From: Halorussus caseinilyticus
GTDB lineage: Archaea > Halobacteriota > Halobacteria > Halobacteriales > Haladaptataceae
NCBI RefSeq assembly: GCF_029338395.1
Contig: NZ_CP119813.1
Span: forward strand, 62,001-126,000
Length of the DNA: 64,000 nucleotides
Reading direction: 5' to 3'
The notes beneath the pieces were generated by a model. The model had not been told where the DNA came from. It did not search any database and saw only the letters and a program-made list of their open reading frames with translations. Position numbers and translations under genes: made by a program. Numbering within the stretch: the first letter of the stretch is position 1; each line of letters opens with the position of its first letter. Of this stretch, positions 6,944-41,759 are shown piece after piece.

Positions 6944-6998
6944 ACGCACAGCACTGAGTATCAATTATTAATAAGATAGATTTCGACTAGTGCATCAA

Positions 6999-8270: not shown

Positions 8271-8308
8271 TCGCCAGAACTAATACCGGTCCAACAGTCT
8301 CTTGAATC

Positions 8309-11300: not shown

Positions 11301-11995
11301 ATGAAAGCGAGTTGGAAGAGAGATTCCCCCAAACGTACGAAATACTATCGCAATACAAACAACGATTATTGGAACGAAAGGACTCTAGAGAGACATTCGA
11401 AGAAAAAGGATACCCCTGGTATTCGATGGCCAGAGTTGGTGAGCCGACAGACTTCGAAAATACAAAAATCGTAACGGGATCGATGATCGCCCATCGCCAG
11501 TTTGCGATTGATACGGACGAATACATTGTTGCAACTGGGTCTGGAAACGCCCGCGCAATCACGCTCGGAGACCTCGACCAATACTACACACTAGGATTCC
11601 TCAATGCTGAGCCAGTCTTCAAATATATGAAGCCGCTTTGCCCACCTAAGCAGAACGGCTATTTCGAGATCTCTATTGAAGTGGCATCAGACCTACCATA
11701 TATCGATTTTGATCTCAATTCAGATCTCTACACTGCAGTCTGTATGATCGTAGACCAACTCGATGTTTCAGAAATAAAGACCATAGTCACTGACGAGGGG
11801 GTTTCAAGTTTATTAACAGCTGATAAGAAGTCGACTGCGACCCATCTGATCCGGGCAGTCGGCGAGGTCCTGTCAGCCAATTACGATCAATACAGTGCGA
11901 GCGATAGAGCAGATTTAGAGGTTATTGTGAATCATTGTGTTGGCGAATTATTTAATCTAAGTGAGGACGATCTCACTGCACTGGAACGAATTTGA
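8309..11995 (+). CDS. Second Eco57I/PglX-like adenine DNA methyltransferase
   Basis: 1228-residue full-length paralogue of the methyltransferase at the left edge. It has the helical region VMDRIIFTYFLQEK, LGAVYTPEEVT, the SAM motif DPAVGSGAFLLAAQ (near 9562-9600) and catalytic NPPY near 10523-10534. Between motifs it carries an extra alpha/beta insert (about residues 600-690) that I cannot name. The specificity region lies C-terminal. It starts 38 bp after the HEPN-type gene and shares its low GC and AT-ending codons, so the pair probably arrived together. With its own specificity region it may be a single-chain type IIG-like enzyme or a PglX-type modifier, but no separate nuclease motif is evident at the N-terminus. 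Confidence 0.85.
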   Translation: MSRDRILASDITQWSSLDDIKNTFVDKRELTDVSEEVESHVPVLKVTERNYFKLLEADPGEELYDYRQETSRRDFTVLVASHDYEKFMFITRDAMSGAGGVRHRRKTIYKDQFDDDLGDKRTILNKLNDIQSGGIAPFFEIYETRKVVNEFYREYRNHLDNLADSVPNSLDIPEAEQREFAQAVMDRIIFTYFLQEKGALSHPSDTDEYFESRILSFKRSESDLYQDFLEPLFFDLLAVPTGEREIDEERFGEVPYLNGSLFTPTEIEEEHNTIRIGEDTTAGNDLIEDYINFLGDWNWHLDETSDADDSAAITPDILGFIFEKSVNKDGLGAVYTPEEVTRYISNKSLNDRVLAGLNAQIDGEGYNSIDNLFGLVDDGEEQVFTSAGLSIQLGDLAAINLDHIEVLYFDVLPNLTILDPAVGSGAFLLAAQEALLDIYITCLAVFDNYPRQEELSSRARDEIQTSSGTSTRLRLKRSIIINNLYGVDIDPGAVEVCKLRLYLSMISDLNQGTSEIEALPNIDFNIRQGNSLFGISDAELLTSDDNDETTQQSIFSYKLKDKIDSYANKIEEFRNNEGTAADARSKIQEQHDKVQPTINSIYAGTIDQRIREEISSVDDVNQYLSDDSIDSVKLIIGFDGSPPEEAKETISDLGGRFYGAKTAHIEIETKQLRAGPHNTAIQLAEDHGFRYMKIERPMTAADLSSQYDLFHWAFEFPNVFGFGESNSGSSGFDLILENPPYISSRQLSTAESELHAELYSTVEGTGCDIFVPFIERSYDLLSDLGEFGVITSRQFMAADYGVGLRDTIADNYPLREAIDFTNYSPFEEVDAYTVILRMSTMDTDSVMCGSVRSARGVEEVRRGIRTSRPETIEGVHSFSLDPDSLSRDRWLILSEDELSAREQMESRSASTLVSDDHPGVDVRSPYKTGRDKILKGEIVSESETEYIIETKTYTTTVEQAAWRRLVRNENVDTWTIEEPTTVVFFPYKRVNDEYVLLNESELEERFPQTYEILSQYKQRLLERKDSRETFEEKGYPWYSMARVGEPTDFENTKIVTGSMIAHRQFAIDTDEYIVATGSGNARAITLGDLDQYYTLGFLNAEPVFKYMKPLCPPKQNGYFEISIEVASDLPYIDFDLNSDLYTAVCMIVDQLDVSEIKTIVTDEGVSSLLTADKKSTATHLIRAVGEVLSANYDQYSASDRADLEVIVNHCVGELFNLSEDDLTALERI

Positions 11996-24664: not shown

Positions 24665-25927
24665 TCACTCGGAGTCGTTTCCGAACAATCGCTTCGTCCG
24701 ACCCCAGACAGACTCCGACTGTGATTCTTCATCGTCTCGATTCCCACCACCAACAACAGGCTCCTCGTGGGTTTGATCTGTCGCTTGGTCACGCTCCGTG
24801 AGTTCAATTGTGAGTCGCTCAACTTCTGCTTCGAGTTCCTCAATACGCTCGTTCTTCCATTCGAGAAGCGTCTCTAGCTCCTCGACACGCTCGGTTAACA
24901 GCCGATTCTTCTCGGTGAGATACGCTTGACTCCGCTTAGACCCGTCACGGCCAGCATCGGCAGAGGAGTCCCCAGTCGAGGTAGAGTCCTGAGGCGAGTC
25001 CTCTCTCGGTTCTAGGTCGTAGAACGCCGACGTATTCCCTACTGCTCGCTCAATCGTCTTCTCGCCGTACGTTGAGCCATCGGCGTAGTGGACCTCATCC
25101 CATTTGTCACGAAGTAACCCCGACTGGCGGAACAATTCGTCCATCCGTGTGTGGTCGCCACCAGTCCAGAACGCCAGCATGTTGCAGAGCGCCATATCAG
25201 CCTCCGACTGACTATCGTATCCACCCGTATTCCCCTTCCAAAGACGCTCAAACTTCGCGCCATTCGACGCATTCATCGCCTTCTCCAGCAACTCCTCGTC
25301 CGCAAGATCCACATCGACGCTGGATGGTCCATTCGTCGTGGACTCTTCGTCAGTGCTCTCACGCCGGTCAGGTTCGGCCTCCGAACTATCGTCGGTGTCT
25401 TGGACGTACTCACGATGAATGGCCGTGAGCGCGTCCTGCCGTCGTGCAACACACGACGGCGTCTCCTCGACGTGATCACCGGTCACAGTAAAGAAGCGCG
25501 CCGTCTCGTACAACTCGAAACTCCCACGCCGATTCCGACCATCAGGGAGGCCACCCTTGATGAGCACGTGGTAGCCAGTTCCGGATGGTGAGACCTCTGT
25601 GTACGAATCGAGACGCTCAATAATGTCACGTGCCGCCTCGTCAACCTCCTCGGTTTCGGGGTCCCGACAGTCGTCGAGGTCCACCCCCACAATTGGATCA
25701 TCATCGGTGAACACGAACCCGACGCCATCAGCATTCCCCGATTCGACGTAGTCAAACGCGGTCTCCAATCCCGTCCACGTCTCCGAGTCCGTCGAGGATG
25801 CGAACCCACCCGACCCAGGAGTTACTGGAATCTTCGTCGCCTTCCCATCCCGTTGCTCCTCCTTCCAGCACACCCATTGCTCGCGTTCACACAACTCGTC
25901 TGGTAGGACATTTACATCAACACTCAC
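24665..25927 (-). CDS. PrimPol-like replication protein (NrS-1 polymerase type)
   Basis: 420 residues. Residues about 10-160 match the archaeo-eukaryotic primase domain of NrS-1-type primase-polymerases: REQWVCWKEEQ, the metal-binding V-D-L-D-D at 82-86, and SPSGTGYHVLIKGG at 113-126. Residues about 210-300 form a helical domain (SEADMALCNMLAFWTGGDHTRMDELFRQSGL) that usually follows such primases. The C-terminal 80 residues are a coiled coil. No helicase Walker motif is present. It would prime or copy DNA of this element. A palindromic repeat region lies just upstream, consistent with an origin that it or a partner serves. Confidence 0.8.
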   Translation of the reverse strand: MSVDVNVLPDELCEREQWVCWKEEQRDGKATKIPVTPGSGGFASSTDSETWTGLETAFDYVESGNADGVGFVFTDDDPIVGVDLDDCRDPETEEVDEAARDIIERLDSYTEVSPSGTGYHVLIKGGLPDGRNRRGSFELYETARFFTVTGDHVEETPSCVARRQDALTAIHREYVQDTDDSSEAEPDRRESTDEESTTNGPSSVDVDLADEELLEKAMNASNGAKFERLWKGNTGGYDSQSEADMALCNMLAFWTGGDHTRMDELFRQSGLLRDKWDEVHYADGSTYGEKTIERAVGNTSAFYDLEPREDSPQDSTSTGDSSADAGRDGSKRSQAYLTEKNRLLTERVEELETLLEWKNERIEELEAEVERLTIELTERDQATDQTHEEPVVGGGNRDDEESQSESVWGRTKRLFGNDSE

Positions 25928-26048
25928 TCGAAGTCACCTCGCATGGCTCTCGCCCCAAGCGAGCCACCAGAAACTACCCACCATCTCTCTTCCCTCTTTC
26001 AATCCGCGAGTTCCAACGGGGACCCCCCGTTCTATAGTAGTTGGTTTT

Positions 26049-26228
26049 TGCTGTAACAGAATCTGCCGTCCTGACGTACACTCCCTGAGTTGCGTTTGAA
26101 CAGCATTTACGGCATTTCGAAGGGCTGGTTTACGTGTTACGGCAATCCACCTATTGCCGTAACACGACGCCGTCTTGCGTTTTTCCCGAGATTGCTGGCC
26201 GACGGACATCTGGGCCTGTTGCCGTAAC
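26049..26228. repeat. TTGCCGTAAC iterons with a perfect 14-bp palindrome (candidate origin)
   Basis: CGTGTTACGGCAAT at 26133-26146 is mirrored exactly by ATTGCCGTAACACG at 26153-26166 with a 6-base spacer. Related copies are TTGCCGTAAC at 26219-26228, TTACGGCA at 26107-26114 and TGCTGTAAC at 26049-26057. All lie in the 350-bp gap between the PrimPol gene and the end of the transfer operon. Repeated sites plus a hairpin beside a primase gene suggest a second replication origin, a transfer origin (oriT) or an autoregulatory operator. Confidence 0.55.
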
Positions 26229-26276
26229 GTAGAATGCTGTTTGAGGCGTTCACCTAGCTCAAAATGGCTGAATCCG

Positions 26277-29200
26277 CTATTCATCTTCTTCCTCCTGTTG
26301 TTGGAGTGCGATGCCATCGTAGCACCGCACTTGTGACCCACCTTTCCGCTCAGTTGTTCGCTCGAAGGTCACGTGATTGCCGAGACGACGACCGAACCAA
26401 CTCTTTGAGTCCGGATCTACATCATGGGTGTCAGCCCACGTTTCGTAGACCGTGTACACCTCTGCAGAGGTGACTGATTCGGCTTCGTCCTCACGGACAC
26501 ATTCGGCTGCAAAGCGCCCGATTGCGGCGTCCGGATCTTCCTTCCAGTTCTCATCCTGTAAAGGAGTTGCAGACACCTCAAAGTCGTCAGAAGTAGGTTC
26601 ATCCGGTGTCTCCGGTTCTGTAGTCTCTAGAGTCTGACCAGACTGGGTTCCATTCTCAAGAGAGTCTGGAGAGCCAACGGTAAACGATGTGTCGAGCAGG
26701 GATTGGGTTGAACTCGTTGTACCGTTTTTGTAGAACACCGGGTCACCGTCCATCGGGAGAATTATGATTCCGTACGCATCATTCCCGTAGGTTGAGTGTG
26801 GAAGCTCATCCTCGGGGACGAACGGCTTTTTGACGGGAACCCAGTCCTCCTTAAATGCGACTTTTGACTCGTAGGTAGATGTCTCGCCGCGAGCGTGGAC
26901 GAGGTACTCGTTTGCAGTCTGGTCGTAGCTGTATATCGCTGGTACTCGGTCTTTAGTTACGGACGCAAGCGACGACGTTCGGAGATGCTCTGTTTCAGTC
27001 TCGTCCCGGAGGATGATTGCATCATCCTCCTGCAGCCAAACCGTGCGGTTTGTATCAGTTTCTTCTGCGATAGGACGGACGGCAGTCACTCCGCCGTCTT
27101 CGGTCGCACCACCGTTGAACGTGAGGTTAGAGTCGTGCGTGTAGAATTGTGTTTCACCACTCTGGAGGTGTCTGACTGGTGGAGAGAGAATTCCTTCAAC
27201 TCGTTCGGCCCAGGCCGTTTTCGACGAACCGGGACGAACGATGAACAGCGGTATTTCCGCTGTCTTCTGGGCTTTCTGGAAATTCGTCAGCACCTTTACG
27301 GGGTTCTCTGGTGTTGTCGTCTCGACCTCGATTGCGAACGTCTCCTCGATGTCCGGGTGGGTCGCTCGTGCGTCGGGTTTCTCATTTCCGTCTTGAGAGA
27401 GTATCGTGACGGTGAACCCGAGCGCCGTCAATTCCGCCTCGATTTCGAGGAGTGCATCGTCGTGGTCACTTCCTCCGGCGGCTTGGACGCTTCCAGTATC
27501 CGGGGTCGCTATGTCTTCACCCGCCTCGGTGAGTCGGATGACAATCTCGTCGATATCGATGTCGACGGTTGTCTCGAGGAACCGCGAGCGCTGGCGAATT
27601 GTCGCTAGTTCCTCGTACGATGGTGCGTCCGCGTCGACATCCTCGAACAAATACCGGAGTTCATCATCGACTGTTTCGACTGCCACCCATCCATTCTCCT
27701 CCCGAACGTCCTCTCGAAGTTGGATACCTCGCACGACCTTCGAGATAGCGACATCCAACTCGTCGTCACTTATGTCGAGGATTTCGTGAAGTTCCGCAGG
27801 TGTGTCTGTACGTGGCTCACCAGTAGTTTCGGGAACCCCGTATTCCTCCTGAACGCGTTCATGTATTGCCGACAGCGTCTCGGTGAACTGTTGTTCTTCT
27901 CGTGGTGTGAGCGGGTGGTCACTCTCGGGATGGCCTGCTGGAATCGGGAGGGGTTTAAGACTGAACGGATACGGACCGGTCTTCCCAAATGTCGGACTTG
28001 GCAAGTTGGCGATCCATTCACCACGGGGGAGCGACCGAATCCGGTTGGCGAAGTCGTCCGGGTCCATCTCCTCGTGAGCCATCGCTCGGGCTAACTCTCG
28101 GTCGACGTTGACGTTCCCGACGAGCGAACTCCCGATGTTGTTGAGGACGTTCAAGTACATTCGCCGACCGCCTGCTGATTCGATTTGTTCGGGGAACTGC
28201 ATCGCCAACCCAACCGAAAGCCGGAAACTCCGTCCTTTTTCCAGGAGGTCATTCATGATGTCGGAGACCACGAGTGATGCCGCCTCATCAATGAACAGGT
28301 TAACTACGTAATCATCCGGATACTGGCCAACGTTCTGCTTGCGTTCTTTGAGCGCATCTTGGAGATTACTCAGTATCAGGCCAGTCATCAAGTGCGCACC
28401 GTCGTCGCGCAAATCGCCAAGGTCGAATATGATGACCGTATCCTCGTCAAGGATATCCCGAAAGTCGAATCGATTCTCGGTGTTATTGAACACCCGGCGC
28501 AGATGGCTATTCTGCGAGATATACGCAAGACGATTCCCGACACCACCAACTACGTTCTTGAACGCACGCTCATCAAGGTCGAGTTGCCGTCGAATCATCC
28601 GGGTGTCTTCCTCATCGCTTGACTGGGGAGCCTGCTCAAAGTCGGGGTTCGGTGGCCCTGCATTCTGAAGTTGGTCAACGGCGTTTTCCAGTTGCCGGTG
28701 GGCGAAATAGTCGACTGACTCTCGGTAAACACCGTTCTCACGGCCGTGTTCCTCGTCAAAGAGCGCCTTGATAAGAGTCTTCATCAGGTTGTTCGACACG
28801 GTGACTCGGTCATATTTGTCTTCGCCCATTGCGAGCTTCAGAATCTCTTCGTAGTGGTCGGCCTTGCGTTGGACAGCATCGACACGCCGTCGGCCGTTTG
28901 CTAGCGAGGAGGTGAGGTTGAAAAACGAGAAGCCGGGGAGTGTATTCGGGATATCGAAGTGAATCACGTTCTCTTCAAGATCTGTCATTCCGAACCGGCG
29001 GGCATGGGCACGCATGTAGTTCGTGGCCATCCCGTCTCCTTTCCGGTCGATGAGAATGGTCGGCCCGCTCGTGTTCTCGTATAGCGAGAGAGAACTGTTA
29101 CTCGCTAAAATTGACTTTCCTGACCCTGTTGTTCCATATATGCCGTAGTGGACTGGCAACAGGCTCGACGGAATGTGTACGGGGGTGTCTTCGGGTTCAC

Positions 29201-30659
29201 CGTCTTCGTCAAGCGCGTAGCCGATCGCCATTCCATCACGGAACTCACGCATCAAATCCGGGTGTGGACGTGGGAGTGGATTGCGACTCCGTTGTTCCGC
29301 CCGTGTTCCTCTGATTCCTTCGACGCTGAGTTGTTCACTCGATGGAACGAGAATGAAGTTCGCTAGTTCGTCTGCATTCAACACGAGGTCGGGCCGGGTC
29401 TTTCCGCTATCCGTCAGGAGTTCTCGGTCGAGAATGCGTTTGAGGGCCTTGCGAGCGTTCTTCGTTTTGGTCTTCTGTCGCCAGCCAGCGTGGCGGAATC
29501 GCTGGCCTTCAACCTCGTAGAATTTCCCATCAAGCGGGTCGAAGACTGGGGCGAGCGACTCCATCTTCGACTCTAGTTTCGCCGTGGCATCCTCGCTCGT
29601 TGGGACTGTGACTGCTCGTAGGTTGACCGTGAACGTTCGCTTTGGGTTCTTCTCGGAGATCCGCTCAATGCGGTTCTCCACAGTCTCACCTAATTCTCGG
29701 TCTTCCGTATCGATGGATTCACTTTCGAGTAGTGGTCCAATCCATCGCTGACTCCATGTATCCCGACCGTCTTTCAGGTCCTCTTGTCGAAGCTCTGCGT
29801 CCGAAACCCAACTCGGTCGGCGCTGGAAGAGCGCTTGGAATCCAATCGGATGCTCGGAGCTACTTAGCTCGTCAATGAGCACCGCTAGCGGTGTTCCCGT
29901 CGACTCACTTGTCGAGTCGGATGTCGTGGACTCGGAGTCGGTGTCGTGGGTAAGCGTCGTCATCCAGTCGTCTTTCCGGGTGGCGACACCACGCCACCGC
30001 ACACCTATCGGTTGGAGGTAGTCAATCGCTTGGCGAGCCAGAATCGTGCCATCCGTCGTGAGTGTTGGTTTCCGAACCGAGGTCGGTAGAAAACCCTCGG
30101 ACCCCGTCTCTTGAGCGTCGATTTGGAAGAGACCTGTCTCGGTCTCGACCACGGTATCGGCGTCTGAATCGATATTAGCTTCAGTCGATTCCGATAGTTC
30201 CGCGGAGGTATCTACGGCGTTCGAATCAGGCTCAGTGGTGGTGTCTGGGTCACTCTCGACCTGCTCGTCCTCGGAAAACTCGTAGAGCAATTGACCACTA
30301 TCGAGGCTCTCTCTGAACTCTTCGCGTTCGTATTCAGTTGGTGGAATGAGCTTTGTCGCGGGGTCGATCTTGACCCGGTTGATGTCGAACGTCGACGGAT
30401 AGATAGAGCGAAGCCGTCGTTCGAGAATATCGAGATGGTCGTCTGCCCCGTAGTAGAACTCGACGGGAGCGTCCCGTCCTTCACTAATCGCCAGAAACTC
30501 GAAGCGAAGTGGCTGTGTTGATTTGAGGGGATTAACTTTCTCAAGAAGGCCAGATGTCTCTTCAGTCGTCAATTTGTGAAGGCTGGCGAGGACCGTTGAG
30601 ACGTTGCTGGCTGGAAGTTCCTCGGAGGTTGGTGTCACGCGAAGGTATTCGCGTTTCAT
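26277..30659 (-). CDS. VirD4/TraG-like coupling ATPase with C-terminal nuclease-like domain
   Basis: 1460 residues. The central motor has Walker A GTTGSGKS (about residue 510) and Walker B LFIDEAASL (about residue 790), of the VirD4/TraG/HerA class that pumps DNA through a type IV channel. The N-terminal 450 residues are alpha/beta and acidic. Around residues 1060-1160 a segment (LGFTVTIL, PDARATHP, FAIEVETTTPENPVKVLTNFQKA) resembles a PD-(D/E)XK fold with E-x-E in place of E-x-K. A small winged-helix-like domain closes the protein. It is last in the transfer operon and overlaps the VirB4 gene by ATGA. No separate relaxase is visible in the operon. Confidence 0.8.
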   Translation of the reverse strand: MKREYLRVTPTSEELPASNVSTVLASLHKLTTEETSGLLEKVNPLKSTQPLRFEFLAISEGRDAPVEFYYGADDHLDILERRLRSIYPSTFDINRVKIDPATKLIPPTEYEREEFRESLDSGQLLYEFSEDEQVESDPDTTTEPDSNAVDTSAELSESTEANIDSDADTVVETETGLFQIDAQETGSEGFLPTSVRKPTLTTDGTILARQAIDYLQPIGVRWRGVATRKDDWMTTLTHDTDSESTTSDSTSESTGTPLAVLIDELSSSEHPIGFQALFQRRPSWVSDAELRQEDLKDGRDTWSQRWIGPLLESESIDTEDRELGETVENRIERISEKNPKRTFTVNLRAVTVPTSEDATAKLESKMESLAPVFDPLDGKFYEVEGQRFRHAGWRQKTKTKNARKALKRILDRELLTDSGKTRPDLVLNADELANFILVPSSEQLSVEGIRGTRAEQRSRNPLPRPHPDLMREFRDGMAIGYALDEDGEPEDTPVHIPSSLLPVHYGIYGTTGSGKSILASNSSLSLYENTSGPTILIDRKGDGMATNYMRAHARRFGMTDLEENVIHFDIPNTLPGFSFFNLTSSLANGRRRVDAVQRKADHYEEILKLAMGEDKYDRVTVSNNLMKTLIKALFDEEHGRENGVYRESVDYFAHRQLENAVDQLQNAGPPNPDFEQAPQSSDEEDTRMIRRQLDLDERAFKNVVGGVGNRLAYISQNSHLRRVFNNTENRFDFRDILDEDTVIIFDLGDLRDDGAHLMTGLILSNLQDALKERKQNVGQYPDDYVVNLFIDEAASLVVSDIMNDLLEKGRSFRLSVGLAMQFPEQIESAGGRRMYLNVLNNIGSSLVGNVNVDRELARAMAHEEMDPDDFANRIRSLPRGEWIANLPSPTFGKTGPYPFSLKPLPIPAGHPESDHPLTPREEQQFTETLSAIHERVQEEYGVPETTGEPRTDTPAELHEILDISDDELDVAISKVVRGIQLREDVREENGWVAVETVDDELRYLFEDVDADAPSYEELATIRQRSRFLETTVDIDIDEIVIRLTEAGEDIATPDTGSVQAAGGSDHDDALLEIEAELTALGFTVTILSQDGNEKPDARATHPDIEETFAIEVETTTPENPVKVLTNFQKAQKTAEIPLFIVRPGSSKTAWAERVEGILSPPVRHLQSGETQFYTHDSNLTFNGGATEDGGVTAVRPIAEETDTNRTVWLQEDDAIILRDETETEHLRTSSLASVTKDRVPAIYSYDQTANEYLVHARGETSTYESKVAFKEDWVPVKKPFVPEDELPHSTYGNDAYGIIILPMDGDPVFYKNGTTSSTQSLLDTSFTVGSPDSLENGTQSGQTLETTEPETPDEPTSDDFEVSATPLQDENWKEDPDAAIGRFAAECVREDEAESVTSAEVYTVYETWADTHDVDPDSKSWFGRRLGNHVTFERTTERKGGSQVRCYDGIALQQQEEEDE

Positions 30660-32851
30660 CGCGGTTGGTCCACCTCCGACCCGCCATCCGTTTCTGTCTC
30701 GACTCCCGGGCTCGAATTACTCGAAGCCCGCTGTTGGAGGTCCTCACGGAACGCTTGAACCTCCGGATCGACTGCATCTCGGTCCGCACCGGGAAGTGAT
30801 TCTCGTGTCTGTTCGGTCGGGTCGAAATCGATAACCTGCTTTTCTTTGTCCATTGCTTGGACCTTGATGCCGCGCCATTCACCGTCGACGCCGACGAGCG
30901 CCTCGGAGAATCCAGCGTCCTCATTGCCGGGAACCGCATCCTGCACGTAGCGCATTTGCGCGTAATTCAGGCCGAACTCGTCGGCCCACTCCTCGTCCAT
31001 CCCATCGAGTTGATGGAACTGCTTGACCGCACACTGGTCGAGAATCGCCTCGCTTTCGGTGTGTTCGAAGAACTCGTCGACGGTCTGGGTGACGAGCCGA
31101 ATCGAGAGGTCGTGATGGCGGTGATGTCGGAACACCGTCTCAAGGAACGCAAGGCTCGCGGCGTCCTGCATGATGTACCGCGCCTCGTCAATGACGAACA
31201 CGACCTCCTTGTCCGTCTCTTTCGCTCGTTCGTACACGAGCGAGATGAGCAACTGCATGGTGAGTGCCGTACTGCTATCGACGCTGCCTTCCTGCTGGGC
31301 GAGGTCAAGGTAGATGACTTTCTCGTCGCGGATGTCGAATTCCGAGGAGCGCCCGAGATTCCCGAATCGGCCGTCGTCCTCGAAGGGGCGAAGCTGGTCA
31401 AGAAGCCACGTCGCGTCCTCACGAATCTTCCCGGCCTCTTCGTCAGACCGGACGACGAACTCTTCGGGGTCGTCGACCATGTCCTCGAAGATGTCCATCA
31501 TATCCCTGATGGTCGGACTGAGGTTGCTGTGCGTCGAGATGTCGTCGGTGATGTCGTTGCGCTTGTAGGCGCGCTTGAGTCCGAGTTCGAGCGTCGTCCG
31601 ACGGTCACCGAGCGAGATACCGCGCAGTGCGAAGAAGTTCGTCAGGAAGCTCATCGCGTCGTCGAGCTTCTCGTTGAACGGGCTCGCGTCCTCACCCATT
31701 GCTCGCTGGACATGGTCGGGTGTTTGGCGAATCTCCAGGGGATTCAGGCCGAGTGTCCCACCGACCGTAATGCGTTTCGCATCGAGTGCTTCGGAGACGC
31801 CTGCCCAGTTGTTGAGTGGTTCGAGGATGATGCCGATGCGGTCCTTGCTTTGCTCGATGGAGCGGATGAAGTTCTGTTTGGAACTGAACGACTTGCCAGA
31901 CCCCGTGTCGCCGACAGTGAACATCGCGTACCCGTTATCACGGGCGAACGGGTCGATGACGACCGGGCTCTGGTTATCCTTGTGAATCCCGAACTCGACC
32001 CCGCCCTCTTCGAGGATGGTCGCGTTATGTGGCGACGAGAGGAGTGCGCCCACCGCGCCACCGAGGGCGATGGATTCGCGGCCAAACTCGTTATCGCCGA
32101 TTGGGGCAGCCGACTGCAGCGCGAGGTCCTGCCGACAAATCGCGGTCTTCGGCGTGAGGTTCACTGGGTCGTCTCGAAGGGCACTCTTGACCTTCTGGAC
32201 CGAATCCCTGAGGTCTTCCTTGTCGTCGGCACGAACCGTGACGAACATCCCCTGGTCGAAGACGTTCGCACCGCTCTCGACGGCCTTGTAGGTCGCAGCG
32301 GCTTCGTTTGCTCGCTCCTGTAGATACGCACTGCGGACGCTCTGCTCGAGGTCGGCGTCGACTTGGAGGTCATCAGCGATATCCTGTAGTTCGTTCCGCG
32401 CTCGTTGCTGGTTCTTCGGGGTGATGTGCGCTGTGAGGTCGAACTCAACGTCAGTCAACTCGAAGAGGTCGCTCAGATATCCATCGCTCGGGTAATCGGC
32501 GTAGTCAGCCATGTATAGTGTCGTCGTCCACTGCTCGCCAACGCGTGCGGATCGTGTCCCCCACTCGATGGCTGCTGGCGCGGTCACCGTCTTGTGTGAC
32601 TCGGAAATATCGTCAAGGAGTTGGCCCTCCGCGTGGCTCTCCTCAAGCGTCTCCTCATCAAGAACATCCGAGAAGTCAACTTCTGGCTCGTCGTCGGCGG
32701 TGTGTCGGTCCCAGAGGAGTTTACCGGCGACTCCGAGGACCACAACCAGTAGGAGGTAAACCGACGCACCTCCGGGTGACGTTGGGTTCAGAAGCCACTC
32801 TGTGAGCTGGCTGAAGGTCCCGCCACCCGCCTGCAGGACGACGTTACGCAT
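30656..32851 (-). CDS. virB4: VirB4/TraC-like conjugation ATPase
   Basis: 731 residues. One transmembrane helix near the N-terminus (VYLLLVVVLGVAGKLLW) is followed by the VirB4 motor with Walker A GDTGSGKSFSS (about residue 318), Walker B VVFVIDEARYIM (about residue 555) and the arginine-finger region HHDLSIRLVTQTVDEF. It energises assembly of the type IV secretion channel. It overlaps the PrgI-like gene upstream by 8 bp and the VirD4-like gene downstream by 4 bp, so the three are translationally coupled. Confidence 0.85.
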   Translation of the reverse strand: MRNVVLQAGGGTFSQLTEWLLNPTSPGGASVYLLLVVVLGVAGKLLWDRHTADDEPEVDFSDVLDEETLEESHAEGQLLDDISESHKTVTAPAAIEWGTRSARVGEQWTTTLYMADYADYPSDGYLSDLFELTDVEFDLTAHITPKNQQRARNELQDIADDLQVDADLEQSVRSAYLQERANEAAATYKAVESGANVFDQGMFVTVRADDKEDLRDSVQKVKSALRDDPVNLTPKTAICRQDLALQSAAPIGDNEFGRESIALGGAVGALLSSPHNATILEEGGVEFGIHKDNQSPVVIDPFARDNGYAMFTVGDTGSGKSFSSKQNFIRSIEQSKDRIGIILEPLNNWAGVSEALDAKRITVGGTLGLNPLEIRQTPDHVQRAMGEDASPFNEKLDDAMSFLTNFFALRGISLGDRRTTLELGLKRAYKRNDITDDISTHSNLSPTIRDMMDIFEDMVDDPEEFVVRSDEEAGKIREDATWLLDQLRPFEDDGRFGNLGRSSEFDIRDEKVIYLDLAQQEGSVDSSTALTMQLLISLVYERAKETDKEVVFVIDEARYIMQDAASLAFLETVFRHHRHHDLSIRLVTQTVDEFFEHTESEAILDQCAVKQFHQLDGMDEEWADEFGLNYAQMRYVQDAVPGNEDAGFSEALVGVDGEWRGIKVQAMDKEKQVIDFDPTEQTRESLPGADRDAVDPEVQAFREDLQQRASSNSSPGVETETDGGSEVDQPR

Positions 32852-33965
32852 TGGTCTCGTCCTCCCGGCGCGAGTGGCCGATGATCGGTTGCTCGCGAAC
32901 GACGCGCTCGGCGTCGTCGTAGTCGTGCTCCCGTCCGTTCCAGAAATCCATGTTCAGGACGAACAGTTCAACTGTACTGAGCCGACGAGCAGACCAGCCG
33001 GACGCCTGCTGGATGAACTCGGCGCGAACGTCGTTGACGCGGCTATCGAGTTTCTCGAACATCTGGGCGCGACGTTCGACATCGGTGAGGTCCTCACGTC
33101 GCGTTACGAAGGGATTGAACAGGAACCCGATGACAGGGAACTTAGTTAGTTTCTCGGCGGGCGTCCCTTCGTCTCTAAATCGGTCGTAGACCTCTAGCGG
33201 CGTCACCTCGACGCCAATGTAGTAGCGAACTTGCTGGATGCCTCGGTCACGCATCTCCTTGGGACGCGTCTCACGGTACTCTTCGAGGAGTTCCTGGAAG
33301 ATCGGGTTCTGCTTGACGTCTTCGTCGTTGAGTCGGTCCTCGATGGTCTCGGTGATCTGCTCAACCGGGAATGACCGGGTTGTCGCGTGGAATTTGAGCT
33401 TCGAGTCGAGTTCCTTGTTGGCGAACTCTTCGCCCGCTTCTTGGAGTTGCGCCCAATCATCGGACATGGCGAAATCCATGTTTCCTGGATCAATCTCGAT
33501 GAACGCCTCCATCGTGCCGTCTGACCGCTGAATTGCACCCGCGCCCGGCCACGCCCGCTCGACGTTCGTGAGGTCCTGCGTTCGCTCGTCCGGTTTGAAC
33601 GGTGTGTAGTTTGCGAGTCCGCCGTCGTTTCGCTCTGTCTCGTTTGTACTACTGTCTGCTTCCTCCGGAGCACTGAACGTAACTCGCGGACGCCTGACGT
33701 AGCGGTAGACGTCCTTCGTCCACGTCCACGCATTCAGGTGGTCGGGAGAGACGTAGATGACAGCAACGCCAAACCCGAATCCGCCCGCTACGAACGGGAG
33801 GGCGAGTGATTCGATTCCGGTGAGGCCAGCGATGAACAGGCCGATAATCGGGAAGGCAATGAGCACACCGACATCCCCTTCCTCGATGCTGAGGTAGGGA
33901 ATGCGGCTCTCTTCGCCGAACTGGTTCATGATGCGCCGTGCGGCTGCGTCTGGGTCTGTCGACAT
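32844..33965 (-). CDS. PrgI/VirB3-like inner-membrane transfer protein
   Basis: 373 residues with two N-terminal transmembrane helices (VGVLIAFPIIGLFIAGLTG and LALPFVAGGFGFGVAVIYV), then a soluble domain resembling the N-terminal, non-motor part of VirB4/TraC (FIEIDPGNMDFAMSDDWAQL, RYYIGVEVTPLEVYDRF). This combination is the usual partner placed before the VirB4 ATPase in archaeal and Gram-positive type IV systems. TAATG overlap with the gene before it. Confidence 0.75.
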   Translation of the reverse strand: MSTDPDAAARRIMNQFGEESRIPYLSIEEGDVGVLIAFPIIGLFIAGLTGIESLALPFVAGGFGFGVAVIYVSPDHLNAWTWTKDVYRYVRRPRVTFSAPEEADSSTNETERNDGGLANYTPFKPDERTQDLTNVERAWPGAGAIQRSDGTMEAFIEIDPGNMDFAMSDDWAQLQEAGEEFANKELDSKLKFHATTRSFPVEQITETIEDRLNDEDVKQNPIFQELLEEYRETRPKEMRDRGIQQVRYYIGVEVTPLEVYDRFRDEGTPAEKLTKFPVIGFLFNPFVTRREDLTDVERRAQMFEKLDSRVNDVRAEFIQQASGWSARRLSTVELFVLNMDFWNGREHDYDDAERVVREQPIIGHSRREDETNA

Positions 33966-35080
33966 TAGTGAATACCTCGATCATACTCCATTCCGCGTTT
34001 GTCACTCGATGCATCTGCTGTGGACCCGCTCGGATCATTCTCTGTCCGACGGTACGACGGTGTACCCCCACCCTCGCTTCCGTGCCCTCCTCGATCGGCA
34101 GCTTTCTGTGCTATGGCTTGACCGGCTGCTGCTTTCGGCCCCCAGCGCGCTGCGGTCGTCGCGACGCCAGCGCCGCCGACATACGCACCGGCTGCGACAC
34201 CGCCGATAAGAGCAGCACCTTTCGTCGCACCTCCCACGACCTTTGCAGTCAGCGGAGTCGCGTACTTGAACGTCTTCCAGGTCACATAGAGGGCGACGAA
34301 CGGTAGGGACGCAGCGACAAGGTACTTGAGAAATGCTGTACCTGACGTTAGCGAGTCTCCAGCGTATATGAGGTCGTATCCTTTGAGAACCATTGCTGTT
34401 GGGAGTGGCAGGACAGCTAAAGGAACGAATCGTTTGGTGAATCCCATTGCGATATCCGAAATAATGGGGATATTTCCATAGGCGAGGGCGAACGCAATCG
34501 GCATTCCGTACAGGTAGACGTAGAGTAAGATCATACGAATGTAAAATAGGGCCTCCAAAGCCCACATCGAAACTCCACCAAAGAAGGCGAATAATAGGCC
34601 CAGACCAGGGTTGGTGATGGATACACCCAGGAACTGTAGCATTGCTGCAGCTACTGAGGAGAGGTCAGGCATCAAGGCGATAGTGAATCCATCAACCAGA
34701 AACAACGTGATAGCACCAATCCAGTACCACGTGATTATCAGGAATGCACCGACCCATGCCGTTTTCTTGGTTTTTCGGGCTTCGTAGGCACTACCCACGT
34801 TGAATATTCGAATAGTATGACGGCCCTGTACGCTCATTACGAGCAGTAGCAGAGCAATGAGCATAATTTCGCCACCGACGAGTCCATCTTGAATCGCTGG
34901 CCACGGTGCATTACTTGGCTCACCGAAGATGAACGTTCCATCTGTCTGTGGTGTTGGTGTTCCAAACATCTCCTCGGTCAGAGTCTGATACCCTGACCGG
35001 AGTCCGTCCATGAATAGACCAATAACCCACTCAACGACGTCCTTGAACCCTTCCAGTACGACATCTATCAGGTCCACCAT
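33965..35080 (-). CDS. VirB6/TrbL-like polytopic channel protein
   Basis: 371 residues with about seven hydrophobic helices (for example IMLIALLLLVMSV, VGAFLIITWYWIGAITLFLV, GLLFAFFGGVSMWALEALFYI, ILLYVYLYGMPIAFALAY) and a hydrophilic Gly/Ser-rich C-terminal tail. The pattern and operon position fit the VirB6 channel component of a type IV secretion system. There is a 2-bp gap to the lipoprotein gene and a 1-bp overlap with the PrgI-like gene. Confidence 0.75.
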   Translation of the reverse strand: MVDLIDVVLEGFKDVVEWVIGLFMDGLRSGYQTLTEEMFGTPTPQTDGTFIFGEPSNAPWPAIQDGLVGGEIMLIALLLLVMSVQGRHTIRIFNVGSAYEARKTKKTAWVGAFLIITWYWIGAITLFLVDGFTIALMPDLSSVAAAMLQFLGVSITNPGLGLLFAFFGGVSMWALEALFYIRMILLYVYLYGMPIAFALAYGNIPIISDIAMGFTKRFVPLAVLPLPTAMVLKGYDLIYAGDSLTSGTAFLKYLVAASLPFVALYVTWKTFKYATPLTAKVVGGATKGAALIGGVAAGAYVGGAGVATTAARWGPKAAAGQAIAQKAADRGGHGSEGGGTPSYRRTENDPSGSTADASSDKRGMEYDRGIH

Positions 35081-35082
35081 CG

Positions 35083-35919
35083 TCAGGCCTCCGTGATCGT
35101 GACTTCACAATCACTCATCTCATTAGATCCAGAGTACTCCACATCGAACACTTTCGTGACCTCATTCCCACTAGCTCTCGTCTCGACGAGAACTGTGAAT
35201 TGTCCACTATTGCCGTCAGGGGAACACCCCGTTCCTTTCTCAGACTCTGACCCAAAGGGGAACGAGTTGCTGAAGAGGTCTACTGTCTCTCCAGGGGCAA
35301 CAACCACCTGTTCAGTTTCGTACATCCCACTTCCTCGGGGTTCTTCAATGGGATTTGGAACATCTCCGGAAAACACCAGTTCAACAACCGCATCTGGGCC
35401 TGTCCCGGAGTTTGTTATAGTGACGAACGCCTCACCGTTCTTCAACCGGTCTGTTTCCGTGTCACCGTAGACCTCGTCCCACGGCTTGTCAGGATTATTC
35501 CGGTAGAGTCCAACGTCCTGAATCTGAACCTCCGGTACGATATCCGTCGTGCTCTCTACGACTGTCTCTTCACCTTTCAGTGCGACCACGCGGTACTCTC
35601 CAGGCTCGTAAGCAGTCCCAATCTCGAACGAGACCTGTTGGACCCCCGCGGCCACATCACGCTTCCCGAATAGCTCTCCATTAGGCTGGATGAGGTTGAC
35701 TTGGTCAACGTTGGCTTCTGCCGAGAGTTCGACGACGAGCGTCGTTCCGTCGACGGCGACTCGCTTGAGCGGTCCCTGACTTCCTGGAGAGGTTGTCTCG
35801 ACACCGGGAGTTCCGGAGTTTCCGCTGTTGTCCAGACAGCCAGCCACGCTCAGGAGCGTAGCGCCTGCGACTGTTCGGAGGGCGTTTCTTCGACTGATGT
35901 GTGGATGGTTTCTGGTCAT
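35083..35919 (-). CDS. Tat-exported lipoprotein of the transfer operon
   Basis: 278 residues from ATG 35919. The N-terminus has twin arginines (SRRNALRTVAG) and a lipobox ending at Cys28 (SVAGC), so it is a Tat-dependent lipoprotein anchored outside the membrane. The mature part is beta-rich (repeated short strands, FVTITNSGTGPDAVVELVFSG) like haloarchaeal surface Ig-type domains. ATG overlaps the previous stop (ATGA), which fixes the start; a longer in-frame extension lacks export features. Probably an extracellular part of the mating or secretion apparatus. Confidence 0.75.
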   Translation of the reverse strand: MTRNHPHISRRNALRTVAGATLLSVAGCLDNSGNSGTPGVETTSPGSQGPLKRVAVDGTTLVVELSAEANVDQVNLIQPNGELFGKRDVAAGVQQVSFEIGTAYEPGEYRVVALKGEETVVESTTDIVPEVQIQDVGLYRNNPDKPWDEVYGDTETDRLKNGEAFVTITNSGTGPDAVVELVFSGDVPNPIEEPRGSGMYETEQVVVAPGETVDLFSNSFPFGSESEKGTGCSPDGNSGQFTVLVETRASGNEVTKVFDVEYSGSNEMSDCEVTITEA

Positions 35920-37651
35920 AAGTTTCGTTGGAAGATGTCTTCTGGGCCGAGCATTCGGAGGAGGCGGTGTCCCGCGTAGAACATCACGAAGAAGGGGATG
36001 AACTGCCAGCCGACCTCGAAAATGAACGCAAACCAGCCATCGATGGTTCCGAGTGGATGCCACCGGGCGGTCGCCGTATCACTTACGTAGGCTGGGCTAT
36101 GTCCGAGCCACGACCCAGGATGATACCGGGCCGTGTAGATACCGGGCTCAGTAATCGTCAGAATGGCTACTCCAGAGGCGTTGGTTTCGACCCTCTGATT
36201 GGCGATGGTGATGTAGCCATTACGTGGGTTGCCGCTAATGGGAAATCGACGGGCGCTTTCGTTGAGAACGATGGGTGCGCCAGTCTGGTTGTCATCCAGT
36301 TCGATTCGAAGCGTCGCCTGCGACTGGTTTTGCTGGAGTACTTCGACAGTGGGGTTACTGCGCCGAAGCTGTCGTTCGGAACCGGCGTCGGACTCGACAA
36401 TAGACGCGTTCACGCCGCGAACGATGCCTGCAACGTGGAGTGCCTCTCTATCGACGGTCTCAGCACGGACACCCACACCGTACGTCGTCTCGTAGGACTG
36501 ATTGACGACCTCGATGGTGACGTTCTCACCGATGGTTCCCGCCGGGGAAGGTCGGTCAGTTCCCCACGTGTCGATGATCTCCGGGCCGTCCCGGACAGGT
36601 TCAGCACGTGGTCCGATCCGGGATGGATACGCGTGGACATACACGGGGATGGCGTCGGACTCAACTTCGGCGCTGTCTGTCCGGTTCGATTTGACGAGCG
36701 TATCCCAGTTTGTGTTGCGGGCGGTGTAGAACCGCCAGACACCACGCACGCTCGCGTTCCCCTCGTCGGTGAGCGTGTACCCTTGCCACGGCCGAGACTG
36801 GAAGATAGCCACGCCAGCATCGCCATTGGGGTACTCAGCGTAGTAAGGGGACGCAGAGAGGTCGTAGATCTCAACGTCGGTTGAGTCCGAGACGTTTCGC
36901 GTCTCCTCACGGTAGACGACGTCGACGTTGGTTCCGTTGACCATGTCGGTCCGTATCGTCTTCTTCAACCGAACGTGAATTTCTGCTTCGAGTGTGAGGG
37001 TCGCGCTCCAGTCGTCATCGATCTGGTAGTCGATAGCCGGCGTGTGCGACCCATCGGTCCTCGCAATGGTCTCCTCATCTTTCTTCAGGCGTACTTCCTC
37101 GATCTCGTGTTCTGTAAGCGACCACTCGACGGTCCGATTCTCAGAGGAACTCCCGTTTGGCACGCGGACGCGATAATCGACGAATCCGCGTATCGTCCAT
37201 TCGGGGCGATGTAGAGTGGGGTGTCACCGGATTCGAGGTGGCCACGGGTCGACGGCTGAAGGGCAAATATAGTCGCATGGGCATCCTCGATGAACACACC
37301 GTCGTCAAGCGACGCGTGAGGCGGGTGCACAGACGTATCTGAACTGCCGGCTTCGAGGTCCTCGAAGTCGTTTCGAGTCCACGTTGCGGCAGTTGCAGGC
37401 GGCCGCTTGAACGTGATGTCCGTCCCGTTTGCGAGCTGGTGGATTGACGTCCGCTCGTCACCGTAGCGTTGGCGGTACTCCTCCTGACTAATGTAATTGT
37501 CCGCGTCGCGCGACCAGAGTGTCGCCGACTCGTTCTCGGTGAGTCCATTCCCTTCTGTCCCCGGCCGCGGTGGGCTTGCTGTGACGATACCTGTGACTAA
37601 GCTCGTCACGAACAGGACGGCCATGAGTATGGAGCGTTCTCGTTGTTCCAT
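35916..37651 (-). pseudogene. Secreted, membrane-anchored transfer-operon protein, one frameshift
   Basis: An N-terminal frame (37651 to about 37205) with a signal peptide (ILMAVLFVTSLVTGIVTA) and a C-terminal frame (about 37205 to 35916) join in the segment LYIAPNGTIRGFVDYRVRVPNG if one G is added in the GG-ACG near 37205. The joined protein is about 578 residues: signal peptide, extracellular beta-rich region with many N-x-S/T sites, and a C-terminal transmembrane segment (WFAFIFEVGWQFIPFFVMFYAGH). The function is probably surface assembly of the type IV apparatus. Because all neighbours are intact, a sequencing indel is quite possible. Confidence 0.7.
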
Positions 37652-37681
37652 GAGGGCTCGCAACGGGGATCGGGAAGTAGC

Positions 37682-38119
37682 TTACCAGGGGACGAGGTCG
37701 ACACACTGTGCCAGCGGGAGGCCCATCATCGATCCGGCGACGGTGTACAGCGGGCCGAGGACAACGAGGACGATGGTGGACTTCATCGCTGAGCGCTTGT
37801 GGCGCTTGAGGGCCTTCTTCTGCTCGGGATTGAGGGTGAACATCTCGATCAGAGAGTCGGCCTGCCAAACGATAGCGAGACCGACGATGCCCAGCCCGGT
37901 TGTCAGCTGGAAGAATCCCTCAATCATTCCAGGGAGGTTGTCAGCACTGCAGACCGCACTCTGAGAGGTTACTGCATCTTGGGTCGTTTGTTGAGCGAGC
38001 GCTGGCTCAACTACTATGAGCGAGAGTACTGCGATGGTGAAGGGGAGTTTTAGACCAACAGTACTCCGTATCGTGGTCTTCGGCTTTTCTTGCGGGGAGT
38101 CGGTATCTGATTGTTGCAT
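37682..38119 (-). CDS. VirB2-like pilin/membrane subunit, first gene of transfer operon
   Basis: 145 residues: a hydrophobic signal-like helix (LPFTIAVLSLIVVEPALA) followed by two transmembrane helices (TTGLGIVGLAIVWQADSLI and TIVLVVLGPLYTVAGSMMG) separated by a short basic loop. This is the TrbC/VirB2 pilin layout, and its position at the head of the VirB6/VirB4/VirD4-like operon fits. Transcription likely starts in the 220-bp gap facing the divergent repressor gene. Confidence 0.65.
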   Translation of the reverse strand: MQQSDTDSPQEKPKTTIRSTVGLKLPFTIAVLSLIVVEPALAQQTTQDAVTSQSAVCSADNLPGMIEGFFQLTTGLGIVGLAIVWQADSLIEMFTLNPEQKKALKRHKRSAMKSTIVLVVLGPLYTVAGSMMGLPLAQCVDLVPW

Positions 38120-38746: not shown

Positions 38747-39946
38747 TCAGACTTCGCCTTGTTTGTCGAGTTCGTTGCACGCTTCGAACACGACGCTCGG
38801 GTCCATGTCGAGTTCGTGAGTATACGACCTGCCGCCGCTCTGGCCTTGGTTCACCTCGTTGCGAATCAGGAACCCGAGCATTTGGAGGTCTTCGAGATGG
38901 TTCCTGATGCTCTGGAGGGTCGTCAGCGGGTCGTCACCGCGCTTCTCGGCGATTTGCTGGTAGGTCGCCATGACCTTCTTCGACCGGACGGGGGTGTCGC
39001 CGTCGTGTTCGATGTGGGCGACCGCTTCGAGGACGTGGCGGGCGTGGAGCGATTGGTCGGCGATTTTGTCTCGGAGTCGACCGCGGTTCACTTCCTCGCG
39101 GGCGCGACCGATATGGTCGTCTTGGACTGTGCCAGCATCTTCGCGTTCGGCGATTTCCGTGCCTTTTCGGAGTAGGTCGATGGCTTGTCGGGCGCTTCCG
39201 GTGTCTTGGGCAGCGAGGGCGGCGGCTTTAGCAACGGCGCTGTCGTCGTAGCCGTCTTCGACCAGTGCTTTTTTGGCGCGGTCGTGGAGGATAGTGCGGA
39301 GTTCGTTGGCGTCGTAGGTTGGGAAGGAGATTTCGTCTTCTTGGAGGGTATCTTTGACTTTCGCAGACAGTCGGTTGCGGAAGGTGTAGTTGTTGCTGAT
39401 GCCGATGATTCCAATTTTGGCGTCTTCGAGGTGATCGTTCGCTCTCGCCCGCGGGAGTTCGTAGAGAAGGCTGTCTGCTTTTTCGAGATGATCGATTTCG
39501 TCTAGAACGACGAGGTGGGTGCCGCCGACTCGTTCGAGTTGTTTGTAGAGTTCTTTGAGTGCATTGCCGGTCGAGAGGCCGCGTTTCGGGAACTCGCTTG
39601 CGTGGTCGGGGAGGAGTCGATTGACGAGTTCGCGGACTGCGGAGAAGACGGTTTCGTCGTTGCAGTTGTAGCGGTGGACGTATAGGTCGTCGGCTGCGTC
39701 TTGTTGTTCGGCGGCGTGTTGGAGTTCATCGAGGACGTGTGTAGTGACGGCGGTTTTGCCGACGCCTGCTTTGCCGTAGAGCATGACGTTTGAGGGATTA
39801 CGGCCGTACAGTACATCTTTGAGGCTGTGTCTGTATTCTTCGATTTCGTCGTCGCGTTCGAGGATGTTGTCTGGTTCGTATTCTTCTTCAAGGACGGTTT
39901 TGTTCTCAAAGAGGGTATCGCCGATGTCTTCGAACAGTCCTGCCAT
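38747..39946 (-). CDS. orc1/cdc6: Orc1/Cdc6 replication initiator
   Basis: 399 residues. AAA+ domain with Walker A GKAGVGKT (58-65), Walker B VVLDEID (146-152) and sensor 1 GIIGISNNYTF, a lid with DTGSARQAIDLLRKG, and a C-terminal winged helix (KKVMATYQQIAEKRGDDPLTTLQSIRNHLEDLQMLGFL). It binds origin recognition boxes and loads MCM helicase. Its promoter side faces a cluster of five conserved boxes at 40032-40405, so it very likely initiates at that origin and defines this as an autonomously replicating element. Confidence 0.95.
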   Translation of the reverse strand: MAGLFEDIGDTLFENKTVLEEEYEPDNILERDDEIEEYRHSLKDVLYGRNPSNVMLYGKAGVGKTAVTTHVLDELQHAAEQQDAADDLYVHRYNCNDETVFSAVRELVNRLLPDHASEFPKRGLSTGNALKELYKQLERVGGTHLVVLDEIDHLEKADSLLYELPRARANDHLEDAKIGIIGISNNYTFRNRLSAKVKDTLQEDEISFPTYDANELRTILHDRAKKALVEDGYDDSAVAKAAALAAQDTGSARQAIDLLRKGTEIAEREDAGTVQDDHIGRAREEVNRGRLRDKIADQSLHARHVLEAVAHIEHDGDTPVRSKKVMATYQQIAEKRGDDPLTTLQSIRNHLEDLQMLGFLIRNEVNQGQSGGRSYTHELDMDPSVVFEACNELDKQGEV

Positions 39947-40031
39947 GTGTCTATTAAAGACTCGTGCAGTTATGATATATAAAAGTGGGGTTTGGGTGTT
40001 TGGTGTGTCCGACTTCTTTAAGTAGGATAGA

Positions 40032-40405
40032 GAGAGTAGACTTGGAGTGTTCAGAAGTAGAACGATGGGTCAAATCTTCTCAAAACCTCATCTTTCCGGT
40101 ACCGTAAAATATATAATAATATTCTATGGGCGTTTTCTAGGATAGTGGAACAAACACCCACTACCTCACGGAATCTGATTTAGAAGCATCGTCTTCTAGC
40201 AACGAACACTCCAAATGTACTCTCCCCCATCCCAAAATCGCGTCCTACCATCTCCCATCTCACGCTGAACACTCCAAATGTACTCTCACTCTACAACCAC
40301 ACCACCACGAGTACCGCCTGATCACTCCAAACCTACTCTCTCCCTCTTTCAAGATATCGACCCTCCGAGACGCCTATCCCTCACGAACACCCAAAATCTA
40401 CTCTC
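40032..40405. other. Candidate replication origin: five 21-bp boxes around an AT-rich core
   Basis: A 21-bp box with core CACTCCAAATGTACTCTC occurs four times in direct orientation (40204-40224 and 40267-40287 identical; 40320-40340 and 40385-40405 diverged) and once inverted at 40032-40052. Direct copies are spaced 53-65 bp. Between the inverted and first direct copy lies an AT-rich stretch (AAAATATATAATAATATTC near 40107-40125) suited to unwinding. The whole array lies beside the orc1/cdc6 gene. The box is unlike the G-rich chromosomal haloarchaeal ORB I know, suggesting an initiator-specific box. Confidence 0.8.
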
Positions 40406-40439: not shown

Positions 40440-40661
40440 TCACCTGCCACGACGCCCACCGTATGACACGCCGAACAGCCACTGTCTGTCCCGACTGCCA
40501 GTACGTCTTTGGAGAATCGTCCGCGCGCCATCTGTCATGATCGACCGCAGCCAAACGTCCTCCTCAAGCGCCAGTAAGAGGTCACGAGCGTACTCGTCGG
40601 TCGAATCTGGGCGTTCCCCTCGGTCGGCTAGCTCGTCCTGTACGAGCATTGCGAGCGACAC
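40440..40661 (-). pseudogene. Truncated gene fragment next to the origin
   Basis: Minus-strand frame starting GTG 40661 with a protein-like first part (MLVQDELADRGERPDSTDEYARDLLLALEEDVWLRSIMTDGA). After about residue 46 the sequence is simply the complement of the zinc-ribbon fragment at 40463-40540. It looks like the 5' part of a small haloarchaeal gene cut at about 40535. Confidence 0.3.
40463..40540 (+). pseudogene. 5' fragment of a DUF5817-like zinc-ribbon gene
   Basis: A 25-codon frame (MTRRTATVCPDCQYVFGES...) that closely parallels the start of the zinc-ribbon gene at 49262 (MTLCTVTVCPDCKYVF) and then stops. It has the first CxxC knuckle only. It meets another truncated gene at about 40535, so this is probably a deletion or recombination junction. 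Confidence 0.4.
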
Positions 40662-40706
40662 ATTAGTCGAACTTCGGGAATCCTCGCTCTTCAGACAAGG
40701 AGGCTG

Positions 40707-41148
40707 TCAATGGTACGTCGGATGGACATCCTCAAGGAGTTGGTCGATGATTTCCCAGAGAATTAAGGATGGAGTCTCATGTTCGAATGAGATACTCCGT
40801 CGGTCTTCATCGTCATCGGTCGTATACTGGAAATGCGTCCGACCGAGATCAGGATGATCCTCGTCTTGATGCCAACCAGCGTGAAACCCTGTATTTGGGT
40901 CGGTGTAGTTTACACGGAACCAATCGTGTGGCTCCTGGCGATACCATGCTACGAGAAGCTCCGGTGATTCCGGTCCAGTTGGTGGGTCAAGGCGGGCTGG
41001 GGTCAAACGTCGCTCGCAACTGCTTGGCTTCGATATCGTCCGGAACGTACTCGACCGTGGTAATCTGGGGAACACGCTCTAGGACGTCCTGCTTCAGTTG
41101 CGCGTACAGGTTCGCGTTCGGATCACCCCCGGGATGTGGAACAGACAT
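40707..41148 (-). pseudogene. Partner gene of the DUF7342-like regulator, one frameshift
   Basis: The frame from ATG 41148 (MSVPHPGGDPNANLYAQLKQDV) ends at TGA 40987-40989 after ATFDPSPP. The frame RLDPPTGPESPELLVAWYRQEPHDWFRVNYTDPNTG continues to 40707. The joined protein, about 145 residues, contains GWHQDEDHPDLGRTHFQ, a His/Asp-rich segment recalling TumE-like or DUF6516-like small toxins. It begins 4 bp after the regulator gene, the usual layout of a two-gene toxin-antitoxin-like unit. Confidence 0.5.
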
Positions 41149-41151
41149 CCG

Positions 41152-41694
41152 TTAGCTACTGGCCTCGGCCGGCTCACTTGTTGGGGCCAGAAAGTCCCAT
41201 TCTCGGATGACGAACCCGACGATCTGGATGCGGCGCTGGAGGTGTTCCCACTCACGCGCGATTTCGCGGCGGTGGTCTTCGTCTTCAGCATCAAGAGCCT
41301 CGTCGGCGATTGTTCCGCGAAGCTGATTCGGTGACTCAACGTCGAACTCGTCTTTCCAGTCCCGAATCTGTGCCTTCATGTCGGCGAGACGGTCTGTGAG
41401 CTCTTCGACAGTATGCCCGCTGTCTCGAAGGCGCGTTGCTTCCTGCATCGCTTGACGGCGGTAATCCGGCGAGTACGTGGTGTGTGTGCCGCTGTCGTCA
41501 CGACGGAGAATACCATCGTCGACAAGCCGTTCGAGGACGCGCTTGGTCGGTTCGTGCGACCGGTCTGCTTCGGAGGCGATCCAGTTTGCGGTCCGTGGCT
41601 CTGACAACTGACGCGCGACCATCCGTACTCGATCCTCACCGGTTGTCTGGCGTTCCATGAGTCCTTTGTCGGAATTCGATTCATCGGTGGTCAT
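41152..41694 (-). CDS. Winged-helix regulator, DUF7342-like (second copy)
   Basis: 180 residues. N-terminal winged helix (SEPRTANWIASEADRSHEPTKRVLERLVDDGILRRDDSGTHTTYSPD) followed by helical segments (EELTDRLADMKAQIRDWKDEFDVESPNQLRG). It is a paralogue of 21637-22188. Its partner gene follows immediately, so this copy keeps the two-gene arrangement that the other has lost. Likely an autoregulatory antitoxin or regulator. Confidence 0.7.
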   Translation of the reverse strand: MTTDESNSDKGLMERQTTGEDRVRMVARQLSEPRTANWIASEADRSHEPTKRVLERLVDDGILRRDDSGTHTTYSPDYRRQAMQEATRLRDSGHTVEELTDRLADMKAQIRDWKDEFDVESPNQLRGTIADEALDAEDEDHRREIAREWEHLQRRIQIVGFVIREWDFLAPTSEPAEASS

Positions 41695-41759
41695 ACTCTA
41701 CGGTTCACACTCTATCTTAATACAGGTTGAGGTCATTCGTCCTATATCGAATTAAATGA

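Follow-up and report, generated by a model that had tools for sequence, protein, structure and literature searches.

In haloarchaeal surveys, a repeat has been counted as an ORB only where it carries a G-string (PMC3528665; the same filter was applied in PMC4595724), and 52 of 154 orc/cdc6 genes, about a third, were left without an origin in one such survey (PMC3528665). The G-string, taken as a contact of the AAA+ domain, is essential at Haloarcula hispanica oriC1 (PMC3936714). In an A. pernix complex the G-tract is touched by the ISM, and specific binding by S. islandicus Orc1-2 needs the GL of the ISM together with winged-helix arginines (PMC9738581). Here we compare with these systems an orc1/cdc6 locus and its boxes from a plasmid of Halorussus. 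The window analysed is a stretch of 64,000 nucleotides (C5:62001-126000) from a 4.39-Mb genome in five contigs, of the same genus as Halorussus aquaticus.

Results

Architecture of the locus

An earlier note on this DNA had described five 21-bp boxes, one inverted and four direct at 53-65 bp spacing, around an AT-rich core beside an intact orc1/cdc6 gene, and had read the whole as an Orc1/Cdc6 origin with its own initiator. Boxes, core and gene are all present at the places it gave (Table 1), and the proposed origin is well supported, as a reading of sequence, by layout, conservation and the linkage of Orc and box. Searching the window with the pattern GAACACTCCAAANNTACTCTC at up to three mismatches returns five matches against 0.01 expected from dinucleotide-preserving shuffles. 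At up to two mismatches the whole genome contains only these five boxes, and a reversed-pattern control gives zero. The four direct boxes are spaced 63, 53 and 65 bp from start to start. The AT-rich core lies between the single minus-strand box and the four plus-strand boxes; the plasmid has roughly a dozen spots just as rich in A/T, this one included. Box cores point toward the AT-rich stretch and tails point outward, a polarity shared, for the pair adjoining the core, by six other oriented orc loci of the genome. The proximal box starts at -106 from the orc ATG; most Halorussus relatives, and Haloferax mediterranei too, keep it between -103 and -106. Relatives likewise have opposed boxes around an AT-rich stretch. 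No boxes occur downstream of orc at the window locus. Just upstream of the TATA-like sequence of the orc promoter we found a half-site that was absent from the earlier note. Both elements are kept in most of ten aligned upstream regions, and the half-site is a candidate autoregulatory site.

Table 1. Features of the putative origin locus and positions of the other orc loci on the plasmid (window coordinates unless prefixed C5).
Feature	Position	Strand	Remarks
orc1/cdc6 initiator gene	38747..39946	-	intact, 399 aa; reads leftward
Orc motifs			Walker A GKAGVGKT; Walker B VVLDEID; ISM-region FPKRGL; winged helix
TATA-like sequence of orc promoter (TTTTATATAT)	39976..39985	-	read from sequence
Core-only half-site GACACACCAAAC (consensus AACnnnCGAAAC)	39998..40009	-	tail absent; between proximal box and TATA
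Proximal box GAACACTCCAAGTCTACTCTC	40032..40052	-	inverted relative to other four; beside orc1/cdc6
AT-rich core	40105..40144		31/40 bases A/T; candidate duplex unwinding element
Box GAACACTCCAAATGTACTCTC	40204..40224	+	
Box GAACACTCCAAATGTACTCTC	40267..40287	+	
Box GATCACTCCAAACCTACTCTC	40320..40340	+	
Box GAACACCCAAAATCTACTCTC	40385..40405	+	
Second plasmid orc locus	C5:135447		duplicate at C5:31885 broken, probably through sequence errors
Third plasmid orc locus	C5:48695		

The boxes as probable divergent ORBs

The box had been described as unlike the chromosomal ORB, which holds for one half of it: the 5' core is the ORB core, and the G-string tail is what has been replaced. In an alignment judged by eye and pattern, the box core AACAnnCGAAAC stands in register with those of the ORBs at six further orc loci in the cell. 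The cores at those loci include ACAGCGGAAACG, ACGACGGAAACG and CACCCGAAACG, and their tails are mostly G-rich. A consensus of 142 unique family boxes reads GAACA(G/C)ACGAAA(C/T)GTACTCTC, with a weak stretch of pyrimidines after it, and in 135 of the 142 the longest G-run in the 22 bases past the core is at most two. Where the definition of Wu 2012 places a G-string at the end of each box, the consensus of the 142 family boxes has the tail TACTCTC, as do the window boxes. We read these boxes as probable divergent ORBs, with the ORB core kept and only the G-string tail replaced. Loss of the G-string may extend beyond the window Orc family, because some boxes at the orc locus of contig C4 (Orc 43% identical) run into GGTCTCTC or CTCTC.

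The initiator and its predicted DNA contacts

The AAA+, lid and winged-helix domains of the encoded protein all score over Pfam cut-offs. An AlphaFold model (pLDDT 90) has its best fold matches in 2qby_A and 2v1u_A, which are DNA-bound archaeal Orc1 structures. Nearly every member of the window Orc family has FPK[KR]GL in its ISM region. The recognition helix begins with an RR pair in other Orcs, whereas the family has KS (RS in two members) there and the window protein QS; family Orcs also have one extra residue here relative to other Orcs. The family-specific changes thus fall in both predicted DNA-contact regions, the ISM and the recognition helix.

Within the family, the window pair stands apart on both sides of the presumed contact. 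Position 9 of the box is C or A in the window and G in the other 39 loci, making the window boxes the only set without G at this position. The recognition-helix residues 345/348 are K(R)/Q in the family and Q/R in the window Orc. Of 99 columns that do not vary among the 39 other distinct family proteins, four differ in the window protein, including Q348R in the recognition helix, and the K/R345 to Q change falls in the same helix. The changes in the protein seem to fit those in the box rather than to be random, and together they may represent a switch in specificity that separates the pair from the chromosomal copy; as a single evolutionary event, the match is suggested, not proven. Some columns covary with box positions 6 and 7, a signal confounded by phylogeny.

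Distribution of the family

A protein-first search (E <= 1e-115) identified Orc relatives at 53-80% identity in 71 of 392 sampled genomes (about 18%) and 28 of 95 genera. The relatives lie on plasmids as well as on chromosomes, one of them on the organism's own chromosome (68% identical). The linkage of Orc and box is clade-wide. Boxes are present in 39 of 39 distinct family relatives compared and at 21 of 21 loci newly fetched from the protein-first search, a few of which come from genomes also found via the box pattern. At the same threshold for boxes, none of 25 full-length Orcs of at most 45% identity has a box. In a tree, all 24 box-bearing full-length Orcs used lie on one side of a 100/100 branch, which corresponds to one label change. 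The Halorussus plasmid copies (window and H. aquaticus) are sister to seven Halorussus chromosomal copies, and boxes are present at the chromosomal copies of the locus too. No close family member was found in viral and phage collections.

A search of other haloarchaeal plasmids, as the earlier note had proposed, does find the box, on H. aquaticus unnamed3 and Haloferax mediterranei pHME132 as well as at plasmid relatives in Halocatena marina and Haladaptatus. The same note had suggested a plasmid-specific pair. The family as a whole is not plasmid-specific, because several members sit on contigs of 2.8-4.0 Mb, and it occurs on many chromosomes including the organism's own. The description may still hold for the exact variant with C or A at position 9, which elsewhere was seen only in a one-box remnant on a sister plasmid. 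A Halocatena marina plasmid has eleven boxes with an exact 56-bp period upstream of orc (L025:1963-2550).

We provisionally regard the family as undescribed. In the literature, survey supplementary tables aside, we found no experimental work on any family member, and a search for the box letters returned no relevant paper. The family was probably overlooked in surveys because its boxes lack the G run required there, and it could explain part of the orc/cdc6 genes left without an origin. With the G-string essential at oriC1 and taken as an AAA+ contact, a natural family that lacks it tests the purpose of that contact.

The plasmid and its other genes

Contig C5 is 145,234 bp long, and its first 41,666 bases match its last part at 99.75% identity. 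Because these bases repeat the end, the likeliest reading of C5 is a circle of 103,568 bp, with the assembly having gone around it 1.4 times; a tandem duplication is a possible alternative. Window positions 41569-64000 repeat C5:1-22432, and about half of the redundant stretch falls in the window. One copy of the 41.7-kb overlap contains many small indels. The 103.6-kb plasmid carries three orc loci, that of the window and two others. Cumulative GC skew on the circle peaks at C5:102070, inside the putative origin, with an amplitude that is not significant against block shuffles (p = 0.27); this peak is a maximum, whereas origins usually show a minimum.

A leftward cluster at 24665-38119 of the window encodes TrbL/VirB6-like and VirB4/TrbE-like proteins, a 1460-aa HerA/TraG-like ATPase with a weak Pox_D5 match at its C-terminus, and a protein with an NrS-1 polymerase HBD domain. 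This cluster is a conjugation-like system with replication parts. The block at 40509-41752, a DUF7342 gene and a small hypothetical gene, recurs at ~79% DNA identity on many haloarchaeal plasmids across genera. Its query region is partly matched by 154 plasmid records, and a SAM-like integrase gene often adjoins it. At 8-11992, two large neighbouring genes with Eco57I/MmeI-type methylase domains may form a restriction- or BREX-like defence cluster, a name taken from Pfam matches only.

Discussion

Our reading, made with good confidence, is that this haloarchaeal plasmid carries at the locus a self-contained Orc1/Cdc6 module of initiator and origin, in which Orc would bind the boxes, melt the AT-rich element and load MCM. 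Binding to the five boxes would have the polarity usual for archaeal ORBs, with the core toward the AT-rich element and the tail outward; bound Orc would then help to melt that element and load the MCM helicase. The winged helix is predicted to read the AACA-nnn-CGAAA core (CCAAA in the window). The TACTCTC tail, which occupies the G-string position of other haloarchaeal ORBs, is probably read by the AAA+ ISM. Orc probably also represses its own gene via the core-only half-site beside the TATA. More tentatively, and with the odds slightly against it, initiator and boxes may have been co-retuned (K345 to Q and Q348 to R with position 9 G to C/A), insulating the origin from the paralogous chromosomal one, with the ISM of the whole family reading a pyrimidine tail instead of the G-string, which has been regarded as general among haloarchaea. 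A paired change of this kind, in one recognition helix and one box position, would be a simple case of coexisting origins keeping their initiators apart.

It is quite conceivable, if somewhat short of an even chance, that the locus is an origin by descent that is dormant or decaying here, and that replication of the plasmid starts at one of its two further orc loci. Of these two, one has G-string ORBs, and Haloferax mediterranei offers documented cases of dormant origins linked to orc (PMC4595724). The sister plasmid H. aquaticus unnamed2, whose backbone is 90% identical, has lost this origin: orc has shrunk there to its final 42 codons, and a single box, carrying C at position 9, is left. Survival of no more than a remnant on that plasmid suggests that the window origin may be redundant or dormant. 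H. aquaticus keeps an intact family origin on another plasmid; as a guess, a loss of the unnamed2 origin through competition for the initiator would fit. Relatives in other genera point the same way. The earlier note had held that repeats away from initiator genes would count against an origin; boxes without a family Orc nearby do occur, at about a dozen loci in other genomes, and two of these are decayed copies of an orc-bearing locus, a single syntenic locus of two genomes where orc was deleted or truncated and the boxes were kept. The further nine or ten sites are mostly single boxes or short arrays. What speaks against dormancy is that gene, promoter, proximal box and array have all stayed intact in the window, and that the changes in the protein seem to fit those in the box.

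Three genomes of one genus share a locus next to a porphobilinogen deaminase gene (L084, L085 and L086); with L084 as the reference, orc is intact in one, truncated in another and gone from the third, and the boxes are kept, so that the three form a series of origin decay. One of the box sites without orc, a single perfect or near-perfect box, recurs at a syntenic position in two related genomes of one genus (L077:3477 and L078:3441). It is remote from any family orc and is possibly a relic or a trans-acting site.

Titration by an ORB cluster is supported for H. hispanica Cdc6E (PMC3936714), and the boxes in the window might be mainly autoregulatory or initiator-titrating sites that control orc dosage, like the H. 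hispanica oriC2D region, rather than a start site. The half-site abuts the TATA, and some relatives have up to ten more boxes downstream of orc. We think this unlikely as the main function, given that origins are arranged this way, with inverted boxes flanking an AT-rich core upstream of orc, and that the window orc has no downstream boxes; origin and titrating or autoregulatory roles can coexist. Regularly spaced direct repeats on a plasmid might call to mind a centromere-like iteron array for partition. The boxes are linked to orc across many genera, chromosomes included, and Pfam scans of the window's larger proteins gave no ParA/SegA match, which makes partition very improbable.

The preferred reading, an Orc1/Cdc6 initiator-origin module, can be set beside described origins. 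Identity with H. hispanica oriC2-cdc6E, an idea raised because boxes flank orc in some relatives, was rejected: no Orc in the test genome, which carries pHH400 at 100% identity, exceeded 41% identity to the window Orc (E <= 1e-80). The window Orc family was not found in this model species, which has five ARS-confirmed origins. The Sulfolobus miniORB is without a G-string. It is an archaeal ORB form, from oriC2, shorter than the classic ORB (PMC4010727); the miniORB is a shortened site, whereas in the window box a new conserved tail substitutes for the G-string. The G-string ORB origins of haloarchaea, oriC1 among them (PMC3528665, PMC3936714), resemble the window locus in being orc-adjacent, with inverted boxes around an AT-rich core, a GAAAC-type core in the same register and outward tails. 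They differ in that the window tail is TACTCTC and the window Orc falls in a separate group, the G-string-origin Orcs compared being only 30-45% identical to it. The closest Orc, at 80%, is that of H. aquaticus plasmid unnamed3 (NZ_CP100402.1), with eight boxes of the type GAACACTCGAAACGTACTCTC; this locus keeps G at position 9 and K345/Q348 and lies in a different replicon context. The organism's own chromosomal origin (contig C1, about 69.4-71.2 kb; orc 68% identical) belongs to the same family and has the same layout, with the box GAACAGACGAAACGTACTCTC, and differs from the window locus at box positions 6, 7 and 9 and at Orc residues 345/348.
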